From Candidatus Zymogenaceae bacterium (GTDB lineage: Bacteria; Desulfobacterota; Zymogenia; Zymogenales; Zymogenaceae), in contig JAFGFE010000039.1 in the NCBI GenBank assembly GCA_016931225.1, positions 62,001 through 126,000 of the forward strand: DNA of 64,000 bases, given 5' to 3'. Shown here piece by piece: positions 19,034-30,001 of this stretch. A program made the position numbers and the translations under genes. The stretch's first letter is position 1, and each line of letters starts with the position of its first letter. The notes under the pieces are model-generated. The model searched no databases and had not been told where the DNA came from. It worked only from the letters and a program-made list of their open reading frames with translations.

Positions 19034-19552
19034 TTACCAGCGCCAACATCCCCGACCGTAGCCCGTGCCGGAGCCCATGCCGTAGCCTTTTCCGTAGCCC
19101 ATACCGTAACCCATGCCGTAGCCCATACCGTAGCCTCTTCCGTATCCCATGCCGTAGCCGCCGTTAAAGGCGTATGGATATTCGGAGAGCTGCTCGTCGG
19201 TCAGCACGCCCCGCGCCTCGTCCCGATACTCCCGCCTGAGGTCGATCAGTTCACGGTTCAGATCGTATATGTCGTCCTCCAGGGCGTCCGCCTTCGTGTA
19301 ATTCGGGTTGTCGTCCCGGTAGATTTTGTCAAGCTGATCCTGCTTGTCCGCGATCGAATCCATGATGGCCTCGGATTTCTCCCAGTATTTCTCCTGGATG
19401 TCCGCAAGCCGCTCGTTCTGGGTATCGGTCATGGTGACGTCGTTTCTCCAGCACCAGGGTGCATAGGTATAGTCGGTCGTATCCGCCGCCAGAACCGCCC
19501 CCGCCGTCAGTGCCAGTGCCATGATTATTGTGAGTGTTACTATTCGTTTCAT
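19034..19552 (-). CDS. Spy/CpxP-like periplasmic protein with Gly-Tyr-Met repeat tail
   Basis: A 172-residue exported protein: signal peptide MKRIVTLTIIMALALTAGAVLA, a helical middle and a repetitive C-terminus. The helical part has two LTxxQ-like motifs, MTDTQNERLADIQ and VLTDEQLSEYP, separated by a charged coiled segment, the layout of Spy/CpxP/ZraP-type periplasmic chaperones and metal-responsive proteins. The last 40 residues repeat GYGM and GYGK units and end in CWRW. The start at 19552 has GGAG about 7 bases upstream. It is the last gene of a four-gene unit headed by an ECF sigma factor. Confidence 0.75.
   Translation of the reverse strand: MKRIVTLTIIMALALTAGAVLAADTTDYTYAPWCWRNDVTMTDTQNERLADIQEKYWEKSEAIMDSIADKQDQLDKIYRDDNPNYTKADALEDDIYDLNRELIDLRREYRDEARGVLTDEQLSEYPYAFNGGYGMGYGRGYGMGYGMGYGMGYGKGYGMGSGTGYGRGCWRW
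19049..19162 (-). repeat. 12-bp tandem repeats encoding GYGM units
   Basis: The 3' part of the Spy-like gene is built of degenerate 12-base units (forward reading CCGTAGCCCATA and variants) encoding Gly-Tyr-Gly-Met/Lys/Arg. About nine units are visible. Such a tract is prone to length change by slippage. Confidence 0.8.
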
Positions 19553-19617
19553 TGTATGCTCCTTTTCTCGTTCGATCGATGTGCGATCGTCTGTTACGTT
19601 TGTAGTTATAGGTTTCT

Positions 19618-20205
19618 TCAGGGACAATATCCCTTGCCGGATCCATAGCCGGATCCGTTGTTTTTGTTCTGATTTCGCCAGCCCTTTCCCTTGCCCTTGC
19701 CCCTAAAATCATCGTCGGTGTCGTACTCGTCGTCCCACCGTCCCCGTCCCATGCCGTACCCGCCGCCGGGACAGAGCCGCTCCTCCATGTGTGTGGTGAA
19801 TATCTCGGCCTGCTCCGGGGTCAGGACGGCGTGCACCTCCATCATCTGCTCGGCGATCATCTGCTCCAGTTCACGCTGGAGGTCCGCGATCTCGGCGATT
19901 TTCAGCTCCACAGCGTCGGGATCCGGCTCGTCCTGTCGCATCAGCTCCGTCAGCTCGAAGCGCTTTTGGGAAAGCTCATTCTTGATGTCGTTCATCTCCT
20001 CTTGGTTTTTTGAGATGATCTCGTCGATGGTCTCCCGCTGTGCGTCATCCAGCATGCCGTCTCCCAGCCAGGTATGAAATCCGAACGAATCGGGAGAGAT
20101 CGTCGTTTCCGGCGTGACGACGTGCCTGAGGGCCATCGTGCCGATGAGCCCCAGGTTAAGGGCGACGGAAAGGATCAGCAGGATAATCAGCGTGTTTCTA
20201 CTCAT
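19618..20205 (-). CDS. Membrane-anchored CpxP/CnrX-like periplasmic sensor protein
   Basis: A 195-residue protein with an uncleaved-looking N-terminal membrane segment (LIILLILSVALNLGLIGTMAL) and a periplasmic all-helical domain. MLDDAQRETIDEII and VLTPEQAEIF are LTxxQ-type motifs; the coiled segment between them (residues 60-125) matches the periplasmic heavy-metal sensor/CpxP layout. The C-terminus is low-complexity, rich in Gly, Lys and Asn and ends GKGYCP. It overlaps the anti-sigma gene by 8 bases. By analogy with CnrYXH it may sense a periplasmic signal and act on the anti-sigma factor; this is inference. Confidence 0.7.
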   Translation of the reverse strand: MSRNTLIILLILSVALNLGLIGTMALRHVVTPETTISPDSFGFHTWLGDGMLDDAQRETIDEIISKNQEEMNDIKNELSQKRFELTELMRQDEPDPDAVELKIAEIADLQRELEQMIAEQMMEVHAVLTPEQAEIFTTHMEERLCPGGGYGMGRGRWDDEYDTDDDFRGKGKGKGWRNQNKNNGSGYGSGKGYCP

Positions 20206-20680
20206 CGGTCACCTCCCGGTCGAAATAGAAGGCCGTCAGGGATTGGGGCGGTGCGTCCATCAGGTATTCGACGGCCAGGGGATCGGTCTGGGGCTCGGGA
20301 GTTGCGACGGACGGCGTAAGAAAGGTAAAGAGCGGCAGAACGCCCGCGGCCAGGCCGATGGATGCGGCCAGCGCGTAGGCCGCGGCGTGCCGTAAACGCA
20401 TATCGAACATGTTCGAGATGCGATCGGCGATGGATTTCCTCCCCTCGATCTCCCTGATTTTCCCAAGAACGAGATCTGTGATGTCGAACTCGGGATCAAT
20501 CGTGCGGTGCGCCAGGGCCCCGGAAAGCGTGCGATGCAGCTGCTTTTCGCGCCTGAGCGCCCGGGCGCAGTCTTCGCACCGGGCCAGGTGACTCTCCAGC
20601 CGCTCGGCCTCCTTCTCGTCCAGTTCTCCGAAGAGATATGCGGACAGGAGCTTTTCAAACTTTCTATGTTTCGTTTTCAT
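20198..20680 (-). CDS. Zinc-finger anti-sigma factor (zf-HC2), membrane-anchored
   Basis: A 160-residue protein with an N-terminal zf-HC2 domain: H31, C35 and C38 in SHLARCEDC, preceded by the typical LLSAYLFGELDEKEAERLESHL helix. One membrane segment follows at about residues 97-118, then a short periplasmic tail. This is the layout of RsrA/ChrR-like or RseA-like anti-sigma factors that hold an ECF sigma factor. It follows the sigma gene after 99 bases on the same strand and overlaps the sensor-like gene. Confidence 0.85.
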   Translation of the reverse strand: MKTKHRKFEKLLSAYLFGELDEKEAERLESHLARCEDCARALRREKQLHRTLSGALAHRTIDPEFDITDLVLGKIREIEGRKSIADRISNMFDMRLRHAAAYALAASIGLAAGVLPLFTFLTPSVATPEPQTDPLAVEYLMDAPPQSLTAFYFDREVTDE

Positions 20681-20779
20681 CGATTGATTCCCTTTCCAAT
20701 CCGTTCCCGTCGTGCGTTCCCACTATTTCGTTCTTCTGTACATATAAACCGGATCATGGTATAAATCCTTCGGTTTGCC

Positions 20780-21370
20780 TTACACATTTTCGCTCGGTGC
20801 GGTGACGTCCCGCTTTTCCAGCTCGCGTTTGAGCTTCCTTTTTGCCCGTATCAGAAGAGAATCCACCGCGGATTCGCTGTCACCCGTCGCCTCGGCGATC
20901 TCGGTATAGCTCATATCAAGGGTATATTTCATTATCAGAACGGAGCGCTCCCTTTCAGACAGGGTCGAAAGCGCGTCCTCGATGAATCGGGACTCCTCGG
21001 CGACCAGGGCCGCTTGTTCAGGATTGTCGTTCTCTGATGCGACGATTGGATCGACGGTGTCCGGATCGTCGGTCTCCATCGGAACGGAGACGGGGCGCTT
21101 TTTTGCGATGACCTTGTTGATGGCCAGGTTGTGGGCCACGCGAAAGAGATACGTGGTGAACTTCGCCGTGGGGCGATAGCGCCTCCTGGCTTCATATATG
21201 CGCAGGAATACCTCCTGGCTCAGCTCCCGGGCGGTTTCGATGTTTTGGGTATATCGAAAAAAATAGTTGATGACAGCCCCCTGGTGACGGCGCACCAGTT
21301 CGCCGAAGGAATTCGTATCCCCCTCTGCTGCGGCCTTCATGAGTTTCTGATCCAGGTCGATGTCGGTCAT
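20780..21370 (-). CDS. ECF-family RNA polymerase sigma factor
   Basis: A 196-residue sigma factor of the extracytoplasmic-function class. Region 2 runs from about residue 22 (FGELVRRHQGAVINYFFRYTQNIETARELSQEVFLRIYEA) with the YLFRVAHNLAINK helix of region 2.4, and region 4 from about 125 (LSTLSERERSVLIMKYTLDMSYTEIAEATGDSESAVDSLLIRAKRKLK). Partnered with the downstream zf-HC2 anti-sigma and two CpxP/Spy-type proteins. The motif TATAAACCG (forward strand) occurs upstream of both this gene (21441-21449) and the anti-sigma gene (20743-20751). Confidence 0.93.
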   Translation of the reverse strand: MTDIDLDQKLMKAAAEGDTNSFGELVRRHQGAVINYFFRYTQNIETARELSQEVFLRIYEARRRYRPTAKFTTYLFRVAHNLAINKVIAKKRPVSVPMETDDPDTVDPIVASENDNPEQAALVAEESRFIEDALSTLSERERSVLIMKYTLDMSYTEIAEATGDSESAVDSLLIRAKRKLKRELEKRDVTAPSENV

Positions 21371-21621
21371 CGGTCGTGGGTATTTCCGTCTCGTCGATAT
21401 GTGCCTGAAAATTCGTTCATCGGCTTCTGCGCCTTTCTACTATAAACCGACGTGTCGGCGAAACACTGCGACGATATATGAAAAAAACAGAAATCATATT
21501 CGATTTGGTATCGACACGTAATAAATATCCGAAAAAGTACGGACATATACTATGCTATACTATATCATGGACGATGACACACTGCATACACATACCTCCA
21601 TGTGAAGGAGCTGCTTCGAGT

Positions 21622-22371
21622 ATGAAACGGATACCGATTTTTCTGATAATCATGCTCTGTGCGGCGTATCCGGTATGCGCCGATATGTATTCCGTAAAAA
21701 CCGATGATCTTCCCTTGTCGAATGATGTCACAATGGCCCTGTCACTTCTGGAGGATGCGCTGGAGACGGCCCGGGGACTTGAGGATTATCAGGTGACGCT
21801 GTTCAAGCGGGAGCGGATCGACGGGATCCTGGGCGAGGAGGAACGGATGACCTTCAAGTGGAGGCGGCCCTTCTCCGTGTATGTCCGGGTGGAGGAGGGA
21901 GGTGACAAGGGGCAGGAAATCATCTATGTGAAGGGCGAGTATGAAGACAAGATGATTGTCAGTCCCGGAGGGATCCTCGGCGGGATGACGCTGAAAATCG
22001 CCCCGGACAGCGGCATCGTCACCAAAAACAACCGCCATATCATCACCGAGGCGGGTATCACTCCCACCCTTGAGCGGATCATATCGATCATCGTCACGGA
22101 TTCGGAGAACCCGTCGTCTCCCATTCGGGTGGAGTATCACGATCATATTTTGTTTCAGGAGAAGCCGTGCAACCTGATACGGGTACATGAAAACAGCTAC
22201 GCGTATCTGACCGAGATATATTTGTACCGGGACACCCTGCTCCCCGCCGCCTTCATATCATATAATGAGGCAGGAGAGCTGATCGAGTCCTACCGGTATC
22301 AGGATTACCTGATCAATATCGGGCTCGGCGAAGATGATTTCGACCCGGACAACGACGAATACAATTTTTAG
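21622..22371 (+). CDS. DUF1571-family exported protein
   Basis: A 249-residue product with signal peptide MKRIPIFLIIMLCAAYPVCA. The mature part matches the DUF1571 outline: LEDALETARGLEDYQVTLFKRERIDG, FKWRRPFSVYVRVEEGGDKGQEIIYVKGEYEDKMIVSPGG and a late SYRYQDYLINIGL segment. Such proteins look like LolA/LppX-type beta-cups that may carry lipid in the periplasm, but no member is known to me to be characterised. Start at 21622 is chosen for the signal peptide and the AAGGAG upstream, over an in-frame ATG at 21478. The tail EDDFDPDNDEYNF recurs in a decayed form at 23168. Confidence 0.75.
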   Translation: MKRIPIFLIIMLCAAYPVCADMYSVKTDDLPLSNDVTMALSLLEDALETARGLEDYQVTLFKRERIDGILGEEERMTFKWRRPFSVYVRVEEGGDKGQEIIYVKGEYEDKMIVSPGGILGGMTLKIAPDSGIVTKNNRHIITEAGITPTLERIISIIVTDSENPSSPIRVEYHDHILFQEKPCNLIRVHENSYAYLTEIYLYRDTLLPAAFISYNEAGELIESYRYQDYLINIGLGEDDFDPDNDEYNF

Positions 22372-22393
22372 GAGAGGGCGTCCCCCCGCTGCG

Positions 22394-22414
22394 GGCGGCG
22401 TATCGCACGCCGCC
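22394..22414. terminator. GC-rich stem-loop after the DUF1571 gene
   Basis: GGCGGCGT and ACGCCGCC form an 8-bp stem with a 5-base loop 22 bases after the stop. There is no T run, so it is a weak terminator candidate or simply an RNA-stabilising hairpin. Confidence 0.35.
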
Positions 22415-22513
22415 TGTGGTGCCCGGTTATGGCCCGGAAACCATCTTTCGTTATAAATGACCGTGTGGTGAGGTCCGGTCTCTCTCTGATTTCAACCTCA
22501 AAGGGGTATATCA

Positions 22514-23167
22514 ATGAATGAGCGAACACGCCGTTTTGTGGTATGGGCGATGTGTGTTGTGTTTGTGATGTCGGTTGTCCCGGCCGCGGCCGGGGATTCG
22601 ATGCTCCTCGACATCTCTGACACGTATTGGGACCCGGAGCGGGAAGACAACGGGGAAGGATGGTGTGGGGAGGCGTGCCTGGAAATGGCCATGGCGTATT
22701 ACGGGGTGGACATTTCTCAGAAGGAGATCAACGAGGCGGCCGTGGATCGTACGCCGGGCCTGATCGAGGAAAACATCGACCAGGCCATGGATGCCCTGGG
22801 CGTTACCTATGTGATCTGGGACGACGAGGAGAGTGATCTGGATCTGTTTTTAGAGTGGATTCGGGAAGGACTTCGGCGTGGGCATCCCGTGCTCGTGGGC
22901 ACCAAGATCTATCCGGATGAGCACCCGAGGTGGTTTGTGGATCATTTCGTGCTTGTGGTGGGCTTTGACGAGCGCGGGCTGGTGATGAACACCCAGTTCG
23001 ATCTGGACGGCAAAATCCATGTATCCTATGCTCAACTAAAGTCTTGGGACGACGGATATTCCTTTGCCAGCAGGCATGATACGTATTTCGGCAGGGTAAT
23101 CACGGGAGTAGACACGAATAGAGGCCCCTCCGGCGGGCAGAATCCCGGGGCGGGGAGAGTCAGATGA
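22514..23167 (+). CDS. Exported C39-like papain-fold peptidase
   Basis: A 217-residue product with a signal peptide (VVWAMCVVFVMSVVPAAAG). GEGWCGEACLEMAMAYYGVDISQKEINEAA gives the family nucleophile, C51, in the CGxA context of C39-like (C39_2) cysteine peptidases, and the later VDHFVLVVGFDERGLVMN supplies the expected histidine near residue 143 and an Asn/Asp near 157. C55 is an additional cysteine. Probably a periplasmic or secreted peptidase or peptidase-like protein. AAAGGGG precedes the ATG. Its stop is followed, in the same frame, by a DUF1571-like remnant. Confidence 0.75.
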   Translation: MNERTRRFVVWAMCVVFVMSVVPAAAGDSMLLDISDTYWDPEREDNGEGWCGEACLEMAMAYYGVDISQKEINEAAVDRTPGLIEENIDQAMDALGVTYVIWDDEESDLDLFLEWIREGLRRGHPVLVGTKIYPDEHPRWFVDHFVLVVGFDERGLVMNTQFDLDGKIHVSYAQLKSWDDGYSFASRHDTYFGRVITGVDTNRGPSGGQNPGAGRVR

Positions 23168-23223
23168 GATATCGATCTGACCGGGGATGATTTCAATCCA
23201 AACAACGGGGAGTATGATTTCCG
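23168..23223 (+). pseudogene. Remnant of a DUF1571 C-terminus
   Basis: Directly after the C39-like stop codon, and in the same frame, the bases translate as DIDLTGDDFNPNNGEYDF. This matches the last residues of the DUF1571 protein encoded at 21622-22371 (NIGLGEDDFDPDNDEYNF) at 10 of 18 positions, and the nucleotides are similar too. Nothing upstream in this frame belongs to DUF1571, so it is a short relic of a second copy. Confidence 0.6.
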
Positions 23224-23274
23224 ATGCTCCGAACGGCCTGTGTCTTTGTCGGCGTCTCATCGATACGAATATCG

Positions 23275-23302
23275 TTGACAATCGAATGTCGTGGCATATA
23301 AT
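23275..23302 (+). promoter_or_regulatory. Consensus sigma70 promoter for the B12 uptake operon
   Basis: Perfect TTGACA at 23275-23280 and perfect TATAAT at 23297-23302 with a 16-base spacer. Transcription would begin near 23309, about 60 bases before the cobalamin riboswitch. Confidence 0.8.
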
Positions 23303-23369
23303 AGAGCACGATTTTCAAAAGGGGGGGGGTGGATTGATCCATCGGCCCTCCGAGATGAAAAGACAAACA

Positions 23370-23527
23370 AGGCGCTTTTGCTTTCCGACGATCGGAAAGC
23401 GCCAGGGAAGATGGTGAAGATCGAGGACAAGTATTTTGCTCCTGGGTCGTATTCCGTCGCTGCCCCGCAACTGTGAATGGGCGAAAAGAATATTGACGCC
23501 CGAAAGCCAGGAACCTGGATGCGCCTG
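23370..23527 (+). ncRNA. Cobalamin riboswitch upstream of btuF
   Basis: The stretch has the cobalamin aptamer core: GGGAA at 23404, the block CCGTCGCTGCCCCGCAACTG at 23454-23473, and a B12-box-like AAGCCAGGAACCTGG at 23504-23518. The ends AGGCGC (23370-23375) and GCGCCT (23521-23526) pair as a closing stem, and CTTTCCGA/TCGGAAAG (23381-23399) forms a hairpin. Compared with the second riboswitch, where GACGG and CCGTC close a tiny loop, GATGG and CCGTC here enclose about 40 extra bases. An intrinsic terminator follows. Confidence 0.88.
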
Positions 23528-23600
23528 AAAGACCAAACAGTCTTCCGAGGGGAGGGCGGTCTTCCGCGAAGGCGAGTTTTCGTGCCGCAGCAGGAATACA

Positions 23601-23629
23601 CCCCGCCCTTTTGAAGGGCGGGGTTTTTT
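23601..23629 (+). terminator. Riboswitch-controlled intrinsic terminator
   Basis: CCCCGCCCTT / AAGGGCGGGG, a 10-bp perfect stem with a TTG loop, is followed by TTTTTT and ends 7 bases before the btuF start. AGGGCGG at 23553-23559 is complementary to CCGCCCT in the left arm and could act as an antiterminator, so bound cobalamin would favour termination. Confidence 0.85.
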
Positions 23630-23636
23630 GTATCGA

Positions 23637-24572
23637 ATGAAATATATGTACAGACATCTCATTTGTGCGGTTATCATTTTTGCGCTTGTGGTATCAGCGG
23701 GCGTCTCGTGCCGTGCCGGGGAGGCGAGGTCCCTCATCGACCAGATGGGCCGGGAGGTGACGGTGCCTGAAAACCCAGGGCGCATCGTCTCCCTGGCCCC
23801 GAACATCACGGAGATTCTCTTCGCCCTGGATGCCGGGGATCGGGTTGTGGGTGTGACCGTCTTCTCGGACTACCCGGAGGCTGCGGCCTCGATCCCGGTG
23901 GTGGGGACGTACATCACCCCGAACCTCGAAGTGATCGTGGCCCTGAAGCCGGACCTGGTCATCGCCACCGCCGACGGCGATAAACAGGAGCCCCTGGCGA
24001 TTCTCGAAACATTCGGCATCCCGGTGTATGTGATCAATCCGAAGGGCGTCGATGATGTGATCGACACGGTCATTGAGATCGGCGAACTGGTGGGAGAGGG
24101 TGAGGAGGCGCGGAAGATCGCAGACGAGATGCAAGGCGTCATCCGTGATGTGGAGGAGCGGGTGAAGGACCTCGAGCCGGTATCGGTGCTGATGGCGCTG
24201 GATATCGAGCCGGTGATTACCGTCGGGACGGAGGCCTTCGCCCACGAGCTCATCGAGCGCGCCGGCGGAGTGAACGCCGCCGGCTCCCGGAAGATACGCT
24301 ATCCCCGGATTTCCCTCGAAGCGGTGATTGCCGCGGCGCCGGAGGTGATCATCATTCCCTCCATGTCGTTCGAGGCGGATACCGAGCGGGCCCTCGCCTT
24401 CTTCGCCGCCTATCCGACCATTCCCGCGGTGATGACCGGAAGAATCCACGTGATCGAGGCGGATATCGTCACCCGCCCCGGTCCCAGGATCGTGGAGGGT
24501 CTTTTCAATTTGGCTGCTCTTCTTCACCCGGACGCTTTTAAAGATATGCCCGACGATGAATCAGAGACGTAA
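23637..24572 (+). CDS. btuF: Cobalamin ABC transporter substrate-binding protein
   Basis: A periplasmic class III solute-binding protein of about 311 residues. It has an N-terminal hydrophobic export signal ending near SAGVSCRAGEA, where VSC could be a lipobox. The family core includes LIDQMGREVTVPENPGRIVSLAPNITEILFAL, VGTYITPNLEVIVALKPDLVIAT and a late RPGPRIVEGLFNLAALLHPD. The riboswitch, the permease and the ATPase downstream make vitamin B12 or a cobinamide the likely ligand. The start at 23637 or 23646 has no clear ribosome-binding site apart from the GGGG in the terminator arm. It overlaps btuC by 17 bases. Confidence 0.9.
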   Translation: MKYMYRHLICAVIIFALVVSAGVSCRAGEARSLIDQMGREVTVPENPGRIVSLAPNITEILFALDAGDRVVGVTVFSDYPEAAASIPVVGTYITPNLEVIVALKPDLVIATADGDKQEPLAILETFGIPVYVINPKGVDDVIDTVIEIGELVGEGEEARKIADEMQGVIRDVEERVKDLEPVSVLMALDIEPVITVGTEAFAHELIERAGGVNAAGSRKIRYPRISLEAVIAAAPEVIIIPSMSFEADTERALAFFAAYPTIPAVMTGRIHVIEADIVTRPGPRIVEGLFNLAALLHPDAFKDMPDDESET

Positions 24573-25551
24573 GCTCATCATCACCGTGCCGCTTCTGCTT
24601 TTAGCCGTGGCGGTGACGGCGCTGATCGCCGCCGGTGTGGGCGCGGTTCATATCCCTATCCGGGATGCGGTTCTGTCGATTTTCCGTCCTGATTCCGTCT
24701 CCCCCGAGACGCTTACCATCATCCGGGAGCTCAGGCTTCCCCGGATCATCGTGGGGCTTTTGGTGGGGGGCGGCCTGGCGCTTGCCGGGATTGTCTTCCA
24801 GGCGCTGCTCAGAAATCCCCTGGCGGATCCATACATCCTGGGTGTTTCCAGCGGCGCGGCGGTGGGTGTGGTGACGGCGTCGCTTTTGGGGCTGGGAGGG
24901 GTGTTTTGGGCGTCGAAGCTGTTCGCCTTTGCCGGGGCCATGACCACCGTGATCATCGTATTCCGCATCGCCCGTATCAAGGAGCGGCTCTATCCCCACA
25001 CGATGCTTTTGACCGGCGTGATCGTGAACGCATTCTTCTCCGCGGCGATCATGTTTTTCATCTCCATCGCCCGGAGCGACCAGATATACAGCATCTTTTT
25101 CTGGCTGATGGGAAATCTGGCTCTCTCCTCCATGGGGGAAGCACTGGTGCTGGGGATAGTGTTTGTCTGTGTCTCCGTGATCGTCTTCTACCATGCCCGG
25201 AACATGAATCTCCTCCTGGGCGGCGACGAGTCGGCGGCGTCTCTGGGGGTGGAGGTGGAGAGGACCAAGCTGGTGCTGTTCGTTGCGGCGTCGGCGCTGA
25301 CGGCGGTGGTGGTTTCCGCCGCCGGGGTGGTCGGCTTCGTGGGATTGATCGTCCCCCACATGCTGAGGATGGTCCTGGGGGCGGATCACCGGGCGCTCAT
25401 CCCCACGGCGGTGCTCTTCGGCGGTCTGTTTCTGGTCGTCGCCGATACCGCCGCCCGGACGGTCATCGCCCCCCTGGAGCTGCCGGTGGGAGTGCTGACG
25501 GCTTTGTTCGGGGCGCCCTTTTTCATCTACCTTTTGCGGAGGGAGCTGTGA
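24556..25551 (+). CDS. btuC: Cobalamin ABC transporter permease (FecCD family)
   Basis: A 331-residue FecCD-family permease with about ten membrane segments. Typical motifs are LRLPRIIVGLLVGGGLALAGIVFQALLRNPLADPYILGVSSGAAVG and, near the C-terminus, GFVGLIVPHMLRMVLGADHRALIPTAVLFGG, which includes the coupling helix that contacts the ATPase. It overlaps btuF upstream and btuD downstream (TGATG), so the three subunits are likely translated together. Confidence 0.93.
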   Translation: MNQRRKLIITVPLLLLAVAVTALIAAGVGAVHIPIRDAVLSIFRPDSVSPETLTIIRELRLPRIIVGLLVGGGLALAGIVFQALLRNPLADPYILGVSSGAAVGVVTASLLGLGGVFWASKLFAFAGAMTTVIIVFRIARIKERLYPHTMLLTGVIVNAFFSAAIMFFISIARSDQIYSIFFWLMGNLALSSMGEALVLGIVFVCVSVIVFYHARNMNLLLGGDESAASLGVEVERTKLVLFVAASALTAVVVSAAGVVGFVGLIVPHMLRMVLGADHRALIPTAVLFGGLFLVVADTAARTVIAPLELPVGVLTALFGAPFFIYLLRREL

Positions 25552-26336
25552 TGATAGAGACACAGACCGTCCGCTTCCGGTACCGCGACGACTGGGTCAT
25601 TCGTGATGCCAGTATAACCATAGACGATGGGGAAAACGTGGCCGTCATCGGGCCGAACGGGTCCGGCAAGAGCACGCTGTTGAAAATCCTCGCGGGGCTC
25701 CTCGTCCCCCAGAACGGGCGGGTGCTGCTTTCGGGTGTTGAGATTTCGGGGCTTTCCCGGCGGAAGATATCCCAAAAGATCGCCCTGGTCTCTCAGGATG
25801 GGGGCGGCGATTTCCCCTTCAGTGTCCGGGACGTGGTCCTCATGGGTCGGGCGCCCTATCTTTCCGGGTTCGCCCTGGAGAAGCGGGGGGATTACGAGCG
25901 GGCCGAGTGGGCAATGCGGGTGACGGATCTTACGGCTCTTCAGGATCGACTGATGATGGAGCTTTCCGGAGGAGAGCGGCAGCGGGCCTGTATCGCCCGG
26001 GCCCTGGCCCAGGATACGGATCTTTTGCTCCTCGACGAGCCGACGGCGTATCTTGACATCGGCCACCAGGTCGCCGTGTCCGGTCTTCTCAGGCGTCTTC
26101 ATCGGGAGTACCGAAAGACCGTCGTCTCCGTCACCCACGATATCAACCTGGCCTCGACCTTTTTCGATCGGGTGATATTGATGTCGGACGGCGCGGTGCT
26201 TGCGGATGGAACGCCGAATGATGTGATTCGGGAAGAATATATACGGGATGTCTATCACACCGAGGTGCTGGTCGATACAAATCCGATATACGACCGGCCC
26301 CGGGTAACCCTTTTGGATACAAAAAGGGAGGTATAG
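25551..26336 (+). CDS. btuD: Cobalamin ABC transporter ATP-binding protein
   Basis: A 261-residue ABC ATPase with Walker A GPNGSGKST at residues 34-42, a Q-loop in ALVSQDGGG, signature LSGGERQR near 141, Walker B LLLLDEPT near 162 and a switch histidine in SVTHDINLA. The frame is open far upstream into btuC, but the ATG overlapping the btuC stop is the natural start. With btuF and btuC it forms a complete inner-membrane importer. Confidence 0.94.
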   Translation: MIETQTVRFRYRDDWVIRDASITIDDGENVAVIGPNGSGKSTLLKILAGLLVPQNGRVLLSGVEISGLSRRKISQKIALVSQDGGGDFPFSVRDVVLMGRAPYLSGFALEKRGDYERAEWAMRVTDLTALQDRLMMELSGGERQRACIARALAQDTDLLLLDEPTAYLDIGHQVAVSGLLRRLHREYRKTVVSVTHDINLASTFFDRVILMSDGAVLADGTPNDVIREEYIRDVYHTEVLVDTNPIYDRPRVTLLDTKREV

Positions 26337-26346
26337 TGTTATGTGA

Positions 26347-26548
26347 GCTCGAAAATGAACGGGAAGACGGTGCAAATCCGTCGCTGCCCCGCACCTGTGA
26401 GTGGGAACGACCGCCGTATGAGACGCCACTGCGAATCAGAGAGATGCCGTTCACAAAACGTTATGGGACGTATGAGCTTCGGCATTTTTCGCTCGCGGGA
26501 AGGCACGGCCAGTAGGACGCCCATAAGCCAGTAGACCGATTTTCGGGC
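26347..26548 (+). ncRNA. Cobalamin riboswitch upstream of the BtuB-like receptor
   Basis: Core elements are GGGAAGACGGTGCAAATCCG at 26361-26380, GCTGCCCCGCACCTGTGA to 26400, GCCACTGCGAAT near 26431 and the B12-box-like AAGCCAGTAGACCG at 26525-26538. GCTCGAAAAT (26347-26356) pairs with ATTTTCGGGC (26539-26548) as the closing P1 stem, one pair being G-U. No strong terminator follows; instead a hairpin covers the ribosome-binding site of the downstream gene. Confidence 0.92.
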
Positions 26549-26555
26549 CTTTTTC

Positions 26556-26585
26556 AACCAGCCTTTTCGAGGGTGAAAGGAGGTT
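26556..26585 (+). promoter_or_regulatory. Hairpin sequestering the btuB ribosome-binding site
   Basis: AACC and GGTT plus CCTTT and AAAGG pair around a 9-base loop, with a small internal bulge, and bury AAAGGAGG (26576-26583), the Shine-Dalgarno of the gene starting at 26589. Lying just after the riboswitch, it is a likely translational output. Confidence 0.7.
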
Positions 26586-26588
26586 CTC

Positions 26589-28694
26589 ATGAAACGCTGG
26601 TTTGTTTTCTGTGTTGCGACATTGGTGCTGTGTGTGTGCGTGGCCGGTATCGCCCCGGCCCAAGACGAGGATGATGAGCTGCTGGTCCCGGAGATCAAGG
26701 TGATCTACACCAGGAGCGAGACCGATCCCCGTAAGATTCCGGCGTCCGTGACCGTCATCGACGCCGAGACCATCGAGAAGTCCGGGGCGAAGACGGTGCC
26801 TGACGTGCTCAGGCGGGAAGCGGGCATCAACATTACGAGCCTGATGGGTAACAACACATTCGTGGATGTGAGCACGAGGGGGTCAAGCAGGGGTACGGAT
26901 ACGCTGCTTATGGTCAACGGCGTCCGATTGACCGAGCCGACCCTGGCCGCCGGGGACTGGTCCCTGATACCGCTGGAGGCCGTCGAGAGAATCGAAATCG
27001 TCCGGGGGACCGGCACGGCCTACTGGGGTGACAATGCCACGGCGGGTGTCGTCAACATCATCACAAAGAAGGGATACGATGTGCCGTTCGCCACGGTTGG
27101 GACCCTCTTCGGCTCCTACGGGAGATTCGAGGAGACGGCAAGCGCCGGGTACTCTCATGACCTGTTTCACGCCTTCGCATCCGGTTCGTACTCGGCCGTC
27201 GAGGGGTGGCGGAGAAACAGCGACGCCGAGGAGCTGAGCTTCGTCGGCTCCGTCGGCTTCACCCCCACCGATATCTTCTCCCTGAGCGTGGACGCGGGCT
27301 ACGTGTCCGACTCCTTCGGCCTTCCCGGAGATCTGACCGCGGCCGACGAGGAAACCTACGGGCGGGATTACTCCTCCACCGACCACGATCGTGGGGCGGG
27401 GGAGCGGTTTTACATCACCACCGGTGTCGATTTCGACTTCGATCGGTTCGGCATGTTCACCGCGGATTACTCCTACCGAGACGGCTACTGGTGGTGGGAC
27501 TCCTTCGATGTGAACGGCGGGTTCGACAACAAGTCGAGAAACAAGAGCGTCGAGCACAATGTTTCCGGAAAGTACGTCTGGGACGTCGCGCTGGGCCCGG
27601 TGGAAAACCGGGTGACGGTGGGCGGCGAGTATCGTGTCTATGACTGGAGTTATGGGCTCTACTGGCCGTCAATGACCACCTGGGTGGACGATGACCTGGA
27701 TCGGACGACCCGGTCGTTCTACACAACCGACGAGCTGACCCTGTATGATATGGTCGTGTTGAGCCTCGGGTATCGCTACGAGCATGCGCAGAATCACTTC
27801 ACCATGGATAACCTCAATACCGGTCTGGTCACCGAGTCGGACGAATTTTATACCAACCAGGCGTACACGGCGGGGATCACGTTCTTGTACGGAAAGGAGG
27901 GGACGCCCTTCTTCGAGGACGGAAGCAAGCTCTACTTCCGGTTCTCCCGGGGCTATCGGCTGCCGCTTATGGATGAATATTTCGGCGTCGGCCTTCCCTC
28001 GATCAACGAGGACCTGGAGCCTGAGATCGTCGTCAGCTACGAGGTGGGATTTGAACACTACTTCACCGAGTATCTCCGCCTGACTTTCGATTACTACCGG
28101 ACGTATTACGAGGACGAGATCGTCTACGACGGCAATATGAACGTCAATTTGGATAAGACCGTGCACGAGGGGATCGAGGTGGGTCTGTACGCGGAGCCGC
28201 TGGACTGGTTGAGCCTCTACGCCGCCTACGCGTGGCAGCGAACGGTCATCTATTCGGACGGGTACTATGCCATATACGACACGATATGGCCGGCGCCGCC
28301 CAGTTACGAGGGATATGAGTACAGCAGCCTGCCGATGATCCCCGAACATACGGTGAGCTTCGGCCTGGGGATCGACTGGAAGGGCATCGCATTCAACACC
28401 GACGCCCGGTGGGTAGACGAGCGGATTTACGACAGCGACTTCACCCGGCAGACCGAAACCCTCGACGATTACCTCGTGGTGGACGCCCGCCTGGGGTACA
28501 CCCACGATTTCGACTTCATGAGGCTGGAGGTGTTCTTCGGCGTCAACAACATTTTTGATGAGGAATATGCCGATTACGGCGTATATACCTACGAGTACTT
28601 CGACTGGGGGACATTTTCCGTCATCCCGGCGAGTACCTCCACCTATCGCCTGCCCGGCCGGGAGTTCTACGGCGGGGTGACCGTACGCTTTTAA
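26589..28694 (+). CDS. btuB: TonB-dependent outer-membrane receptor, BtuB-like
   Basis: A 701-residue outer-membrane receptor with signal peptide MKRWFVFCVATLVLCVCVAGIAPA. The plug domain starts near residue 45 (KIPASVTVIDAETIEKSGAKTVPDVLRREAGINI) and includes VERIEIVRGTGTAYWGDNATAGVVNIITKKG. The beta-barrel follows with many aromatic strand ends, closing with GREFYGGVTVRF, which ends in the aromatic residue expected for outer-membrane barrels. The cobalamin riboswitch directly upstream makes corrinoid uptake the likely role, delivering to BtuFCD. A strong terminator follows. Confidence 0.9.
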   Translation: MKRWFVFCVATLVLCVCVAGIAPAQDEDDELLVPEIKVIYTRSETDPRKIPASVTVIDAETIEKSGAKTVPDVLRREAGINITSLMGNNTFVDVSTRGSSRGTDTLLMVNGVRLTEPTLAAGDWSLIPLEAVERIEIVRGTGTAYWGDNATAGVVNIITKKGYDVPFATVGTLFGSYGRFEETASAGYSHDLFHAFASGSYSAVEGWRRNSDAEELSFVGSVGFTPTDIFSLSVDAGYVSDSFGLPGDLTAADEETYGRDYSSTDHDRGAGERFYITTGVDFDFDRFGMFTADYSYRDGYWWWDSFDVNGGFDNKSRNKSVEHNVSGKYVWDVALGPVENRVTVGGEYRVYDWSYGLYWPSMTTWVDDDLDRTTRSFYTTDELTLYDMVVLSLGYRYEHAQNHFTMDNLNTGLVTESDEFYTNQAYTAGITFLYGKEGTPFFEDGSKLYFRFSRGYRLPLMDEYFGVGLPSINEDLEPEIVVSYEVGFEHYFTEYLRLTFDYYRTYYEDEIVYDGNMNVNLDKTVHEGIEVGLYAEPLDWLSLYAAYAWQRTVIYSDGYYAIYDTIWPAPPSYEGYEYSSLPMIPEHTVSFGLGIDWKGIAFNTDARWVDERIYDSDFTRQTETLDDYLVVDARLGYTHDFDFMRLEVFFGVNNIFDEEYADYGVYTYEYFDWGTFSVIPASTSTYRLPGREFYGGVTVRF

Positions 28695-28722
28695 TGCCCG
28701 GATACATCAGAGGAATGTATTA

Positions 28723-28749
28723 CCCCCGGACGGTATGTCCGGGGGTTTT
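28723..28749 (+). terminator. Intrinsic terminator of the receptor gene
   Basis: CCCCCGGAC / GTCCGGGGG with a 5-base loop is followed by TTTTGTTGTT, 28 bases after the btuB stop. Confidence 0.85.
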
Positions 28750-28771
28750 GTTGTTGGGCGGGTCGGAGCCG

Positions 28772-28800
28772 TTGACAGCCGGTGTGTGACGTGATAGAAG
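28772..28800 (+). promoter_or_regulatory. Candidate promoter for ddl
   Basis: TTGACA at 28772-28777 and TAGAAG at 28795-28800, spacer 17 bases. It lies after the upstream terminator, and the leader to the GTG start at 28889 would be about 80 bases. Confidence 0.45.
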
Positions 28801-28888
28801 AGAACACGGTCGTTTTCATGGAACCCGGCGATATACAGCGGTGTCGATACATACATCGGGATTATCAATCAAGAAACAGAGGAAAGAC

Positions 28889-30001
28889 GTGAACAAACAG
28901 AAAATCGGCGTCATATTCGGCGGGCGTTCGGGTGAGCACGAGGTATCACTGGTGTCGGCCACATCGATCATCGAGGCCCTCGACCGGAATCGGTTCGAGG
29001 TCGTTCCCATCGGTATCTCCAAGGAGGGGCACTGGTACACGGGTGCGGGGGTGATGGAATTCCTGAAGGGGAGGCCTTCGGCCGGGCCCGCACACGCCGC
29101 GATTCTGCTGCCGGACAACGAGGGGGGGCTTCTGACCTGGGACGAGGGGAGGGGGCGGGAGAGGCTGGACTGTGTGTTTCCGGTGCTCCACGGTCCCTAC
29201 GGAGAGGACGGCACCGTCCAGGGGCTTCTGGAGCTGGCGGGTGTTCCCTATGTGGGGTGCGGAGTAATGGCGTCGAGCCTGGCGATGGACAAGGTGGTCT
29301 CAAAGGCATTGTTCCTTTCCCTGGATCTGCCCACGGCGCCGTATATATGGTTCCACTCATCGGGGTGGAAAGCTGACGAGGAGGGGGTCATCGCCGATAT
29401 CGAAAAGGAGCTCTCCTACCCGGTATTCATCAAGCCCGCCAACATGGGGTCGTCCGTGGGGATATTCAAGGCCCACGATCGAAATGAGCTGTCCGACGCT
29501 GTGCCGCAATCCATGCAGTATGATCGAAAGGTTCTCGTGGAGGAGGCGGTTGAGGACGCCATGGAGATCGAAGTGTCCGTTCTGGGAAACGACGAGCCCG
29601 AGGCCTCGGTCCCGGGAGAGATCATCCCCTCAAACGAGTTTTACGATTACGATGCGAAATATGTGGACGGCAAGTCCACAGACAAGATACCGGCGGATCT
29701 GCCGAAGAATGTTATCGAGCGCATCCGTGAGCTCGCGGTGGAGTCGTTTCGGGCCATAGACGGCTCAGGCCTTGCCCGGGTTGATTTTCTGGTGACCCGC
29801 AAAACCCACGAGATCTTTCTCAACGAGCTCAATACCATCCCCGGCTTTACCTCCATCTCCATGTATCCGAAGCTGTGGGAGGCCACAGGCCTCGGCTATT
29901 CGGATCTGCTCACCCGTCTGGTGGATCTGGCGTTTGAGCGGCACGCGGTCAAGTCGTCTTTAGCCACCTCGTATCAGCCGAAAGAGGACTGGTATAAATA
30001 G
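28889..30001 (+). CDS. ddl: D-alanine--D-alanine ligase
   Basis: Ddl joins two D-alanines for the peptidoglycan pentapeptide; its product feeds MurF. The roughly 370-residue ATP-grasp enzyme has the N-terminal IGVIFGGRSGEHEVSLVSA, PVLHGPYGEDGTVQGLLE, the ATP-binding YPVFIKPANMGSSVGIFKA and metal-binding NELNTIPGFTSISMYPKLWEA. The GTG at 28889 has AGAGGA 6 bases upstream and is preferred to an upstream GTG at 28841. Many dcw clusters carry ddl next to murB and ftsQ; here it is a separate single gene with its own promoter. Confidence 0.95.
   Translation: MNKQKIGVIFGGRSGEHEVSLVSATSIIEALDRNRFEVVPIGISKEGHWYTGAGVMEFLKGRPSAGPAHAAILLPDNEGGLLTWDEGRGRERLDCVFPVLHGPYGEDGTVQGLLELAGVPYVGCGVMASSLAMDKVVSKALFLSLDLPTAPYIWFHSSGWKADEEGVIADIEKELSYPVFIKPANMGSSVGIFKAHDRNELSDAVPQSMQYDRKVLVEEAVEDAMEIEVSVLGNDEPEASVPGEIIPSNEFYDYDAKYVDGKSTDKIPADLPKNVIERIRELAVESFRAIDGSGLARVDFLVTRKTHEIFLNELNTIPGFTSISMYPKLWEATGLGYSDLLTRLVDLAFERHAVKSSLATSYQPKEDWYK

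Follow-up and report, generated by a model that had tools for sequence, protein, structure and literature searches.

A probable vitamin B12 uptake operon with a pair of cobalamin riboswitches predicted to act on transcription and on translation in a Zymogenaceae bacterium

Why should one import system be gated twice with the same ligand? A natural test of this question is offered by the vitamin B12 (cobalamin) uptake locus of a Candidatus Zymogenaceae bacterium, which lies in a 64,000-nucleotide (nt) stretch of contig JAFGFE010000039.1, hereafter the window. In this locus, genes for a corrinoid importer (btuFCD) and for a BtuB-like outer-membrane receptor are each preceded by a riboswitch. According to a preliminary description, the first riboswitch ends in a terminator, the second hides the Shine-Dalgarno (SD) sequence of the receptor gene, and importer and receptor would be tuned separately, possibly with different sensitivity. 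We find the pair to be real and well formed, the devices being of known types and their arrangement new. Most probably it forms a single operon in the order promoter, switch 1 with terminator, btuFCD, switch 2 with SD hairpin, btuB and final terminator, in which the receptor would be gated twice in series and the importer once. The target of switch 2 in some relatives would be an upstream open reading frame (uORF). All operon features described below are on the + strand.

Two aptamers and their expression platforms

A scan with the Rfam covariance model RF00174 (Infernal; gathering score 31.5) yielded exactly two matches, which lie on the + strand of the window, and no further ones in the whole genome from which the window comes (G000; 3.73 Mb, 99% complete). 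With 46.1 bits (E 2.2e-8; 23359..23536) and 82.4 bits (E 8.9e-19; 26317..26558 by the Rfam limits) both regions pass the model, which confirms the two cobalamin riboswitches of the preliminary description. A fuzzy-regex search for riboswitches had given 682 matches and was too noisy; it was replaced by an Infernal model, R1, which gives the core of aptamer 1 a score of 43.4 bits.

Switch 1 is preceded by a sigma-70-like promoter, TTGACA-16-TATAAT at 23275..23302, which agrees with the consensus at 12/12 positions. Its core motifs GGGAA, GGUG, L5 (CTGCCCCGC, 23460..23468) and AGCCAGGA are all retained, as are L13 and the terminator. The B12 box and the P7-P12 extension were not found in this aptamer, and therefore switch 1 was not filed as class I, whereas the class I extension (GCCACTG / GGGAAGGC, B12 box, P7-P12) is present in switch 2. 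In addition, J6/3 is shortened, reading GGA-ACC where GGAGACC is usual, and the Rfam alignment places a 32-nt insert, which is able to fold as a hairpin, in loop L4 (23418..23449). Because of the missing B12 box and P7-P12 extension, the L4 insert and the shortened J6/3, it is possible that aptamers 1 and 2 differ in affinity or cofactor preference.

Downstream of aptamer 1, P13 and L13 (GTCTTC-CGAGGG-GAGGGC, 23540..23557) are followed by an intrinsic terminator at 23600..23629, just ahead of btuF as had been proposed; it consists of an 11-pair hairpin (23600-23624) and the U-run TTTTTGTATC. The 3' side of P13 (AGGGCGG) is complementary to the 5' arm of the terminator and is a candidate antiterminator, and the nascent fold of switch 1 in G000 and G001 contains this pairing. 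In the region 22900-28900 the terminator scan called 10 sites against 4.9 +/- 2.3 in shuffled sequences, so that only the strength of the two strongest is informative. These two strong + strand sites are the hairpin of switch 1 and the operon end at 28722..28746, and no strong terminator follows switch 2 before the latter.

The second platform is of a different kind. The 5' end given by Rfam for aptamer 2 (26317) falls within btuD and is poorly aligned; the true closing stem is formed approximately by 26347-26355 with 26540-26548. L5 is again CTGCCCCGC (26384..26392), and the B12 box is present. P13/L13 (26562..26583) pairs CCTTTT (26562-26567) with GAAAGG (26575-26580) around the loop CGAGGG (26568-26573). 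The SD sequence AAAGGAGG lies in and after the 3' arm (26576-26583), and the receptor ATG follows at 26589. The hairpin over the SD without a terminator, as first described, is thus present. An alternative was rejected in which switch 2 turns expression on and the SD is paired by the sequence that flanks the closing stem on its 3' side: the isolated fold permits it, but the pairing strand is not conserved in G001 and G002. Beside P13, the stretch AAAAAGG in the last btuD codons (26320-26326) can pair with a CTTTTT stretch at 26549-26555, and btuD translation could in this way perturb the flank of switch 2; this feature was not observed in G001 and G002.

Taken alone, the SD pairing in the window is no better than with a shuffled pyrimidine-rich 5' arm (p 0.73). 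The comparison with relatives covered 49 SD-type switches that remained of 61 rows found with an SD-hairpin pattern after 12 loci were left out, nine without the R1 core (L145, L146, L147, L151, L153, L154, L160, L179, L182) and three that have the core but in which the start is not clear (L133, L152, L181). Shuffling each P13 sequence separately was uninformative (4/49 at p<=0.05), and a permutation test was used instead. Among 41 distinct relatives, the P13 arms pair with their own partner at -4.50 kcal/mol and with permuted partners at -3.39 +/- 0.21 kcal/mol, a value reached in 0 of 5000 permutations, with relatedness not removed. Each of the 49 carries the L13 motif CGNGGG, of which the search pattern had prescribed GNGGG only; L102 and L155 merely seem to deviate, owing to register effects. 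With N bulged, CGNGGG can pair with CCCCG of L5, which would give a kissing loop, and in the two switches of the window the pairing of L5 with the L13 stretch is worth -7.4 and -7.0 kcal/mol. In a sample of 395 genomes of the phylum, the SD-hairpin pattern was found in 50 genomes and a reversed control pattern in 9; eight of the 50 are without a B12 core, and a uORF is present in five of the remaining 42. Compact platforms with CCTCGAGGGGGG or similar occur in L042, L054, L056 (937), L059 (5664) and L102 (7753); in these, the SD seems to be provided by the L13 motif, so that it could pair with L5 without an intermediate.

Serial or separate gating of the receptor

The reading frames of btuF (23637..24572), btuC (24556..25551) and btuD (25551..26336) overlap, switch 2 begins at the btuD stop codon, and the receptor gene occupies 26589..28694. 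The promoter before switch 1 is found with 12/12 positions in G000 and G001 and with 9/12 in G002 and is missing in G041, and upstream of switch 2 no sigma-70-like promoter was found in the window, G001, G002 and G041. Because the promoter stands only before switch 1, the genes overlap and switch 2 sits at the btuD stop, we infer co-transcription, with the receptor behind both gates in series. Of the preliminary description, two switches with different predicted outputs are well supported; separate tuning of importer and receptor is not borne out.

Under such serial gating, plentiful corrinoid would lead L5 of aptamer 1 to capture L13, the terminator would form and little mRNA would be made for the whole uptake system. 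On escaped or pre-existing mRNA, L5 of corrinoid-bound aptamer 2 would capture L13 (CGAGGG) and P13 would pair with the SD, which would block translation of the receptor alone. Switch 1 would set the mRNA level of the whole system, and switch 2 receptor translation on that mRNA. Control of transcription spares mRNA, and control of translation can act on mRNA that is already there and shut off the outer-membrane receptor without delay.

Several observations weigh against this interpretation. In folding of the window, SD accessibility drops from 0.80 to 0.32 once L13 is forced unpaired, but among the 49 relatives it falls in 6 and rises in 8, and capture of L13 as a general switch of SD accessibility is unsupported outside the window. 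The antiterminator pairing of switch 1 is no better than in shuffled sequences in three genomes (p 0.15, 0.81 and 0.44), and the degenerate aptamer 1 might bind its ligand weakly. Receptor, BtuC and BtuD score under the B12-specific cut-offs of NCBIfam. Finally, a promoter of another type may lie inside btuD, with which the missing sigma-70 match would be compatible.

Such a promoter would create two transcription units, in which the switches could tune importer and receptor separately after all. In favor of this, switch 2 has all the parts of a riboswitch, including a platform of its own, and single B12 switches precede receptors at other loci; yet in four genomes nothing resembling a promoter was found upstream of switch 2, and there is no terminator between btuD and the receptor, which makes it quite improbable. 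It is also conceivable that only switch 2 works in practice, switch 1 being in decay, without response to adenosylcobalamin (AdoCbl), or re-specialised for another corrinoid. Aptamer 1 scores 46 bits in the window and 89 bits in the G001 orthologue, the extension is kept in G001 and lost in G000 and G002, and the altered J6/3 and the L4 insert point in the same direction, but core motifs, L13 and terminator are retained and the same form is kept in G002, for which reasons we hold it to be unlikely.

A further proposal is compatible with gating in series, namely that switch 1 is a dual device whose terminator hairpin, when formed without release of the transcript, also blocks translation of btuF. 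Only one stretch ahead of btuF resembles an SD, namely AAGGGCGGG (23614-23622); this best match lies in the 3' arm of the hairpin, and platforms of this kind are reported in excerpts of Barrick and Breaker 2007 (PMC2258182). Against it, the SD is weak (-7.3 kcal/mol), and the hairpin is separated from the ATG at 23637 by 12 nt, more than the 10-nt limit stated in those excerpts, which is respected only if a TTG at 23628 is the start; we regard the proposal as possible, if rather doubtful.

The btuF-like product, a corrinoid-binding protein, belongs to PF01497, and its best solved relative is the vitamin B12-binding protein 5ysc (E 5.7e-33). The btuC-like permease (PF01032) reaches 276.7 bits with the NCBIfam BtuC model, under the cut-off of 461, and the btuD-like ATPase (PF00005) 243 bits with the corrinoid ATPase model, under 537. 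The TonB-dependent receptor (PF07715 and PF00593) gives only 98.8 bits with the B12-receptor model TIGR01779 (BtuB), far under its cut-off of 599.7; it was named BtuB-like because of its context and because BtuB is its nearest solved relative (E 3e-14). A single-sequence AlphaFold model of the receptor had a mean predicted local distance difference test score (pLDDT) of 29.9 and gave no usable fold. CbiC was not detected in the G000 genome and the MetH activation domain gave a weak match only, which fits with reliance on imported corrinoid.

The surroundings of the operon hold other functions. Immediately upstream, genes for a DUF1571 protein and a C39-peptidase-like protein occupy 21478-23167. 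Farther away, on the - strand, 19037-20205 encodes a pair of small exported proteins in which LTXXQ and Metal_resist domains were recognised; adjoining them at 20198-21370 (- strand) are reading frames which we take, by their sequence, to encode sigma-factor-like and anti-sigma-like proteins. Immediately downstream of the operon lies a gene for D-Ala-D-Ala ligase (28841-30001), and a ligase-like reading frame also follows the receptor of G001.

The pair in relatives and a candidate uORF relay

Four genomes of the window's class and eight of the class of G041 were sampled. The switch pair is present in three of the former four, including G001 and G002; the fourth, which is 88% complete, gave no match. 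Among 32 loci with two B12 switches on the same strand, 21 have the terminator first and the SD hairpin second, a count enriched for SD platforms in second place, since 15 of the loci were picked via the SD-hairpin pattern and 17 came from pattern-free searches; the reverse order was seen in none of the 32. Of the pattern-free loci, some of which were retrieved for showing two matches, nine of 17 have the terminator-then-SD order (the window, L033, L034, L035, L036, L037, L038, L053 and L131). This order is expected where both switches serve one gene, because translational control requires contact of the switch with the SD. A terminator is also called after the second switch in four of the 21 (L034, L137, L148, L174), and the genes between the switches of L037 and L038 are not btuFCD. 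The cores of L131, L142, L148, L149, L150, L155, L174 and L175 are about 290-510 nt apart, and these loci look like tandem bi-mechanism cobalamin switches in one leader, terminator then SD.

In six orthologous leaders (G001, G002, G041, G119, G091 and contig DSDU01000165, which is L056; the loci are L033, L034, L036, L056, L156 and L158), the SD hidden by P13 serves a uORF of 10-11 codons. Its stop is separated by 56-74 nt from btuB, whose start was set by the position of the signal peptide and which has its own SD. In the minimum-energy fold this SD pairs with the region of the uORF stop, with 3/6 bases in G001 and 4-6/6 in the other five. The peptide sequence varies, and the length of the uORF and the complementarity between stop region and SD are kept. 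When spacers were shuffled, the pairing had p<=0.05 in four of the six (G002, G041, DSDU01000165, G091) and was not significant in G119 (p 0.06) and G001 (p 0.46); combined by Fisher's method the result is 7e-5, the cases being non-independent. Permutation of the arms gave p 0.031 for the six leaders.

A similar layout exists in another family, that of G030, in which 10 of the 29 B12 switches examined have a uORF of 6-13 codons (L188, L190, L194, L196-L198, L200, L203, L206, L208). There, starts of uORFs and main genes were picked by eye, and L213, which looks frameshifted, and L189, without ATG, were not scored as uORFs. By sequence resemblance, the genes that follow are presumably metE, receptor or cbiK-like genes. 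L197 was left out of the pairing tests, being near-identical to L196. Arm permutation gave p 0.005 for ten distinct leaders including this family and p 0.07 for the family alone, and a simpler duplex test was at p<=0.05 in five of the six orthologous leaders and in one of nine leaders of the other family.

In the window the start codon behind the switch, ATG 26589, is that of the receptor, and there is no uORF; a switch-controlled uORF before the main gene, of the type known for ppe2 of Mycobacterium tuberculosis, is absent there and present in the six orthologous leaders. Likewise, in the other uORF-less sisters (G019, G056, G163, G076) the SD of the switch lies directly at the receptor, which suggests that the uORF was lost by a deletion between two repeated SDs. 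In the relatives with a uORF, translation of btuB probably depends on it via the hairpin between the stop region and the btuB SD. We tentatively propose a two-step RNA relay in some lineages, a close call in our judgement: the ligand would open or close the 11-codon uORF, and the terminating ribosome would unzip the hairpin at the btuB SD, with a similar layout in the other family; a single deletion between the SDs could abolish it, as in the window. The relay looks as if it had been repeatedly gained or lost, with moderate statistical support, and with the same moderate support in orthologues it is the most interesting lead of this analysis. Since the sister lineages differ in one feature, namely whether the switch controls the receptor directly or via a uORF, they can serve as a comparative set for what a uORF relay adds to a riboswitch.

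Comparison with known systems

Both switches belong to RF00174 and show the L5-L13 kissing-loop complementarity of this family. The same aptamer core and L5-L13 elements, and a P13 that connects to either an SD hairpin or a terminator, are found in AdoCbl riboswitches such as those of Escherichia coli btuB (translational) and Priestia megaterium metE (transcriptional; PMC10653944). In contrast to known RF00174 systems, the window has both outputs in one operon, L13 reads CGNGGG with N probably bulged, and aptamer 1 is without the peripheral extension. Excerpts of PMC10653944 set out the kissing-loop/P13 logic for the cobalamin class and mention a bulge in the kissing loop of env8; the pairing of the P13 3' side with the terminator 5' arm in switch 1 resembles the P. 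megaterium metE model given there. In excerpts of PMC2258182, dual platforms have the SD-like stretch in the 3' arm of the terminator as in switch 1, the distance from hairpin to ATG being here slightly over the 10-nt limit.

Bi-mechanism tandems are known for SAM-II/SAM-V, and according to excerpts of PMC9481103 they share with the window one ligand and a transcription gate followed by a translation gate. In the window, however, both aptamers are cobalamin aptamers and three genes stand between them. In the same excerpts AdoCbl doublets are listed under the pseudo-cooperative type alone, and a tandem is defined by a gap of <=300 nt with no open reading frame between. By platform anatomy, the window combines one transcriptional and one translational platform for what is presumably the same ligand, but btuF, btuC and btuD intervene. 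The pair would act like a bi-mechanism tandem on the receptor, yet it is not a member of this group.

For riboswitches combined with a uORF, leader peptide or translational coupling, the only relevant B12 case among open-licence full texts was PMC11260477. In the portion of it that concerns M. tuberculosis ppe2, the SD of the uORF uPPE2 is masked by a B12 switch, and expression of the main gene requires translation of this uORF. Coupling is described there as an overlap of stop and start (AUGA), whereas in the relatives of the window it would be provided by a hairpin between uORF stop and btuB SD across a spacer of 56-74 nt. If true, the relay adds to the Mycobacterium example of a B12 switch acting on a uORF a case from another phylum, in which coupling is achieved by different means.

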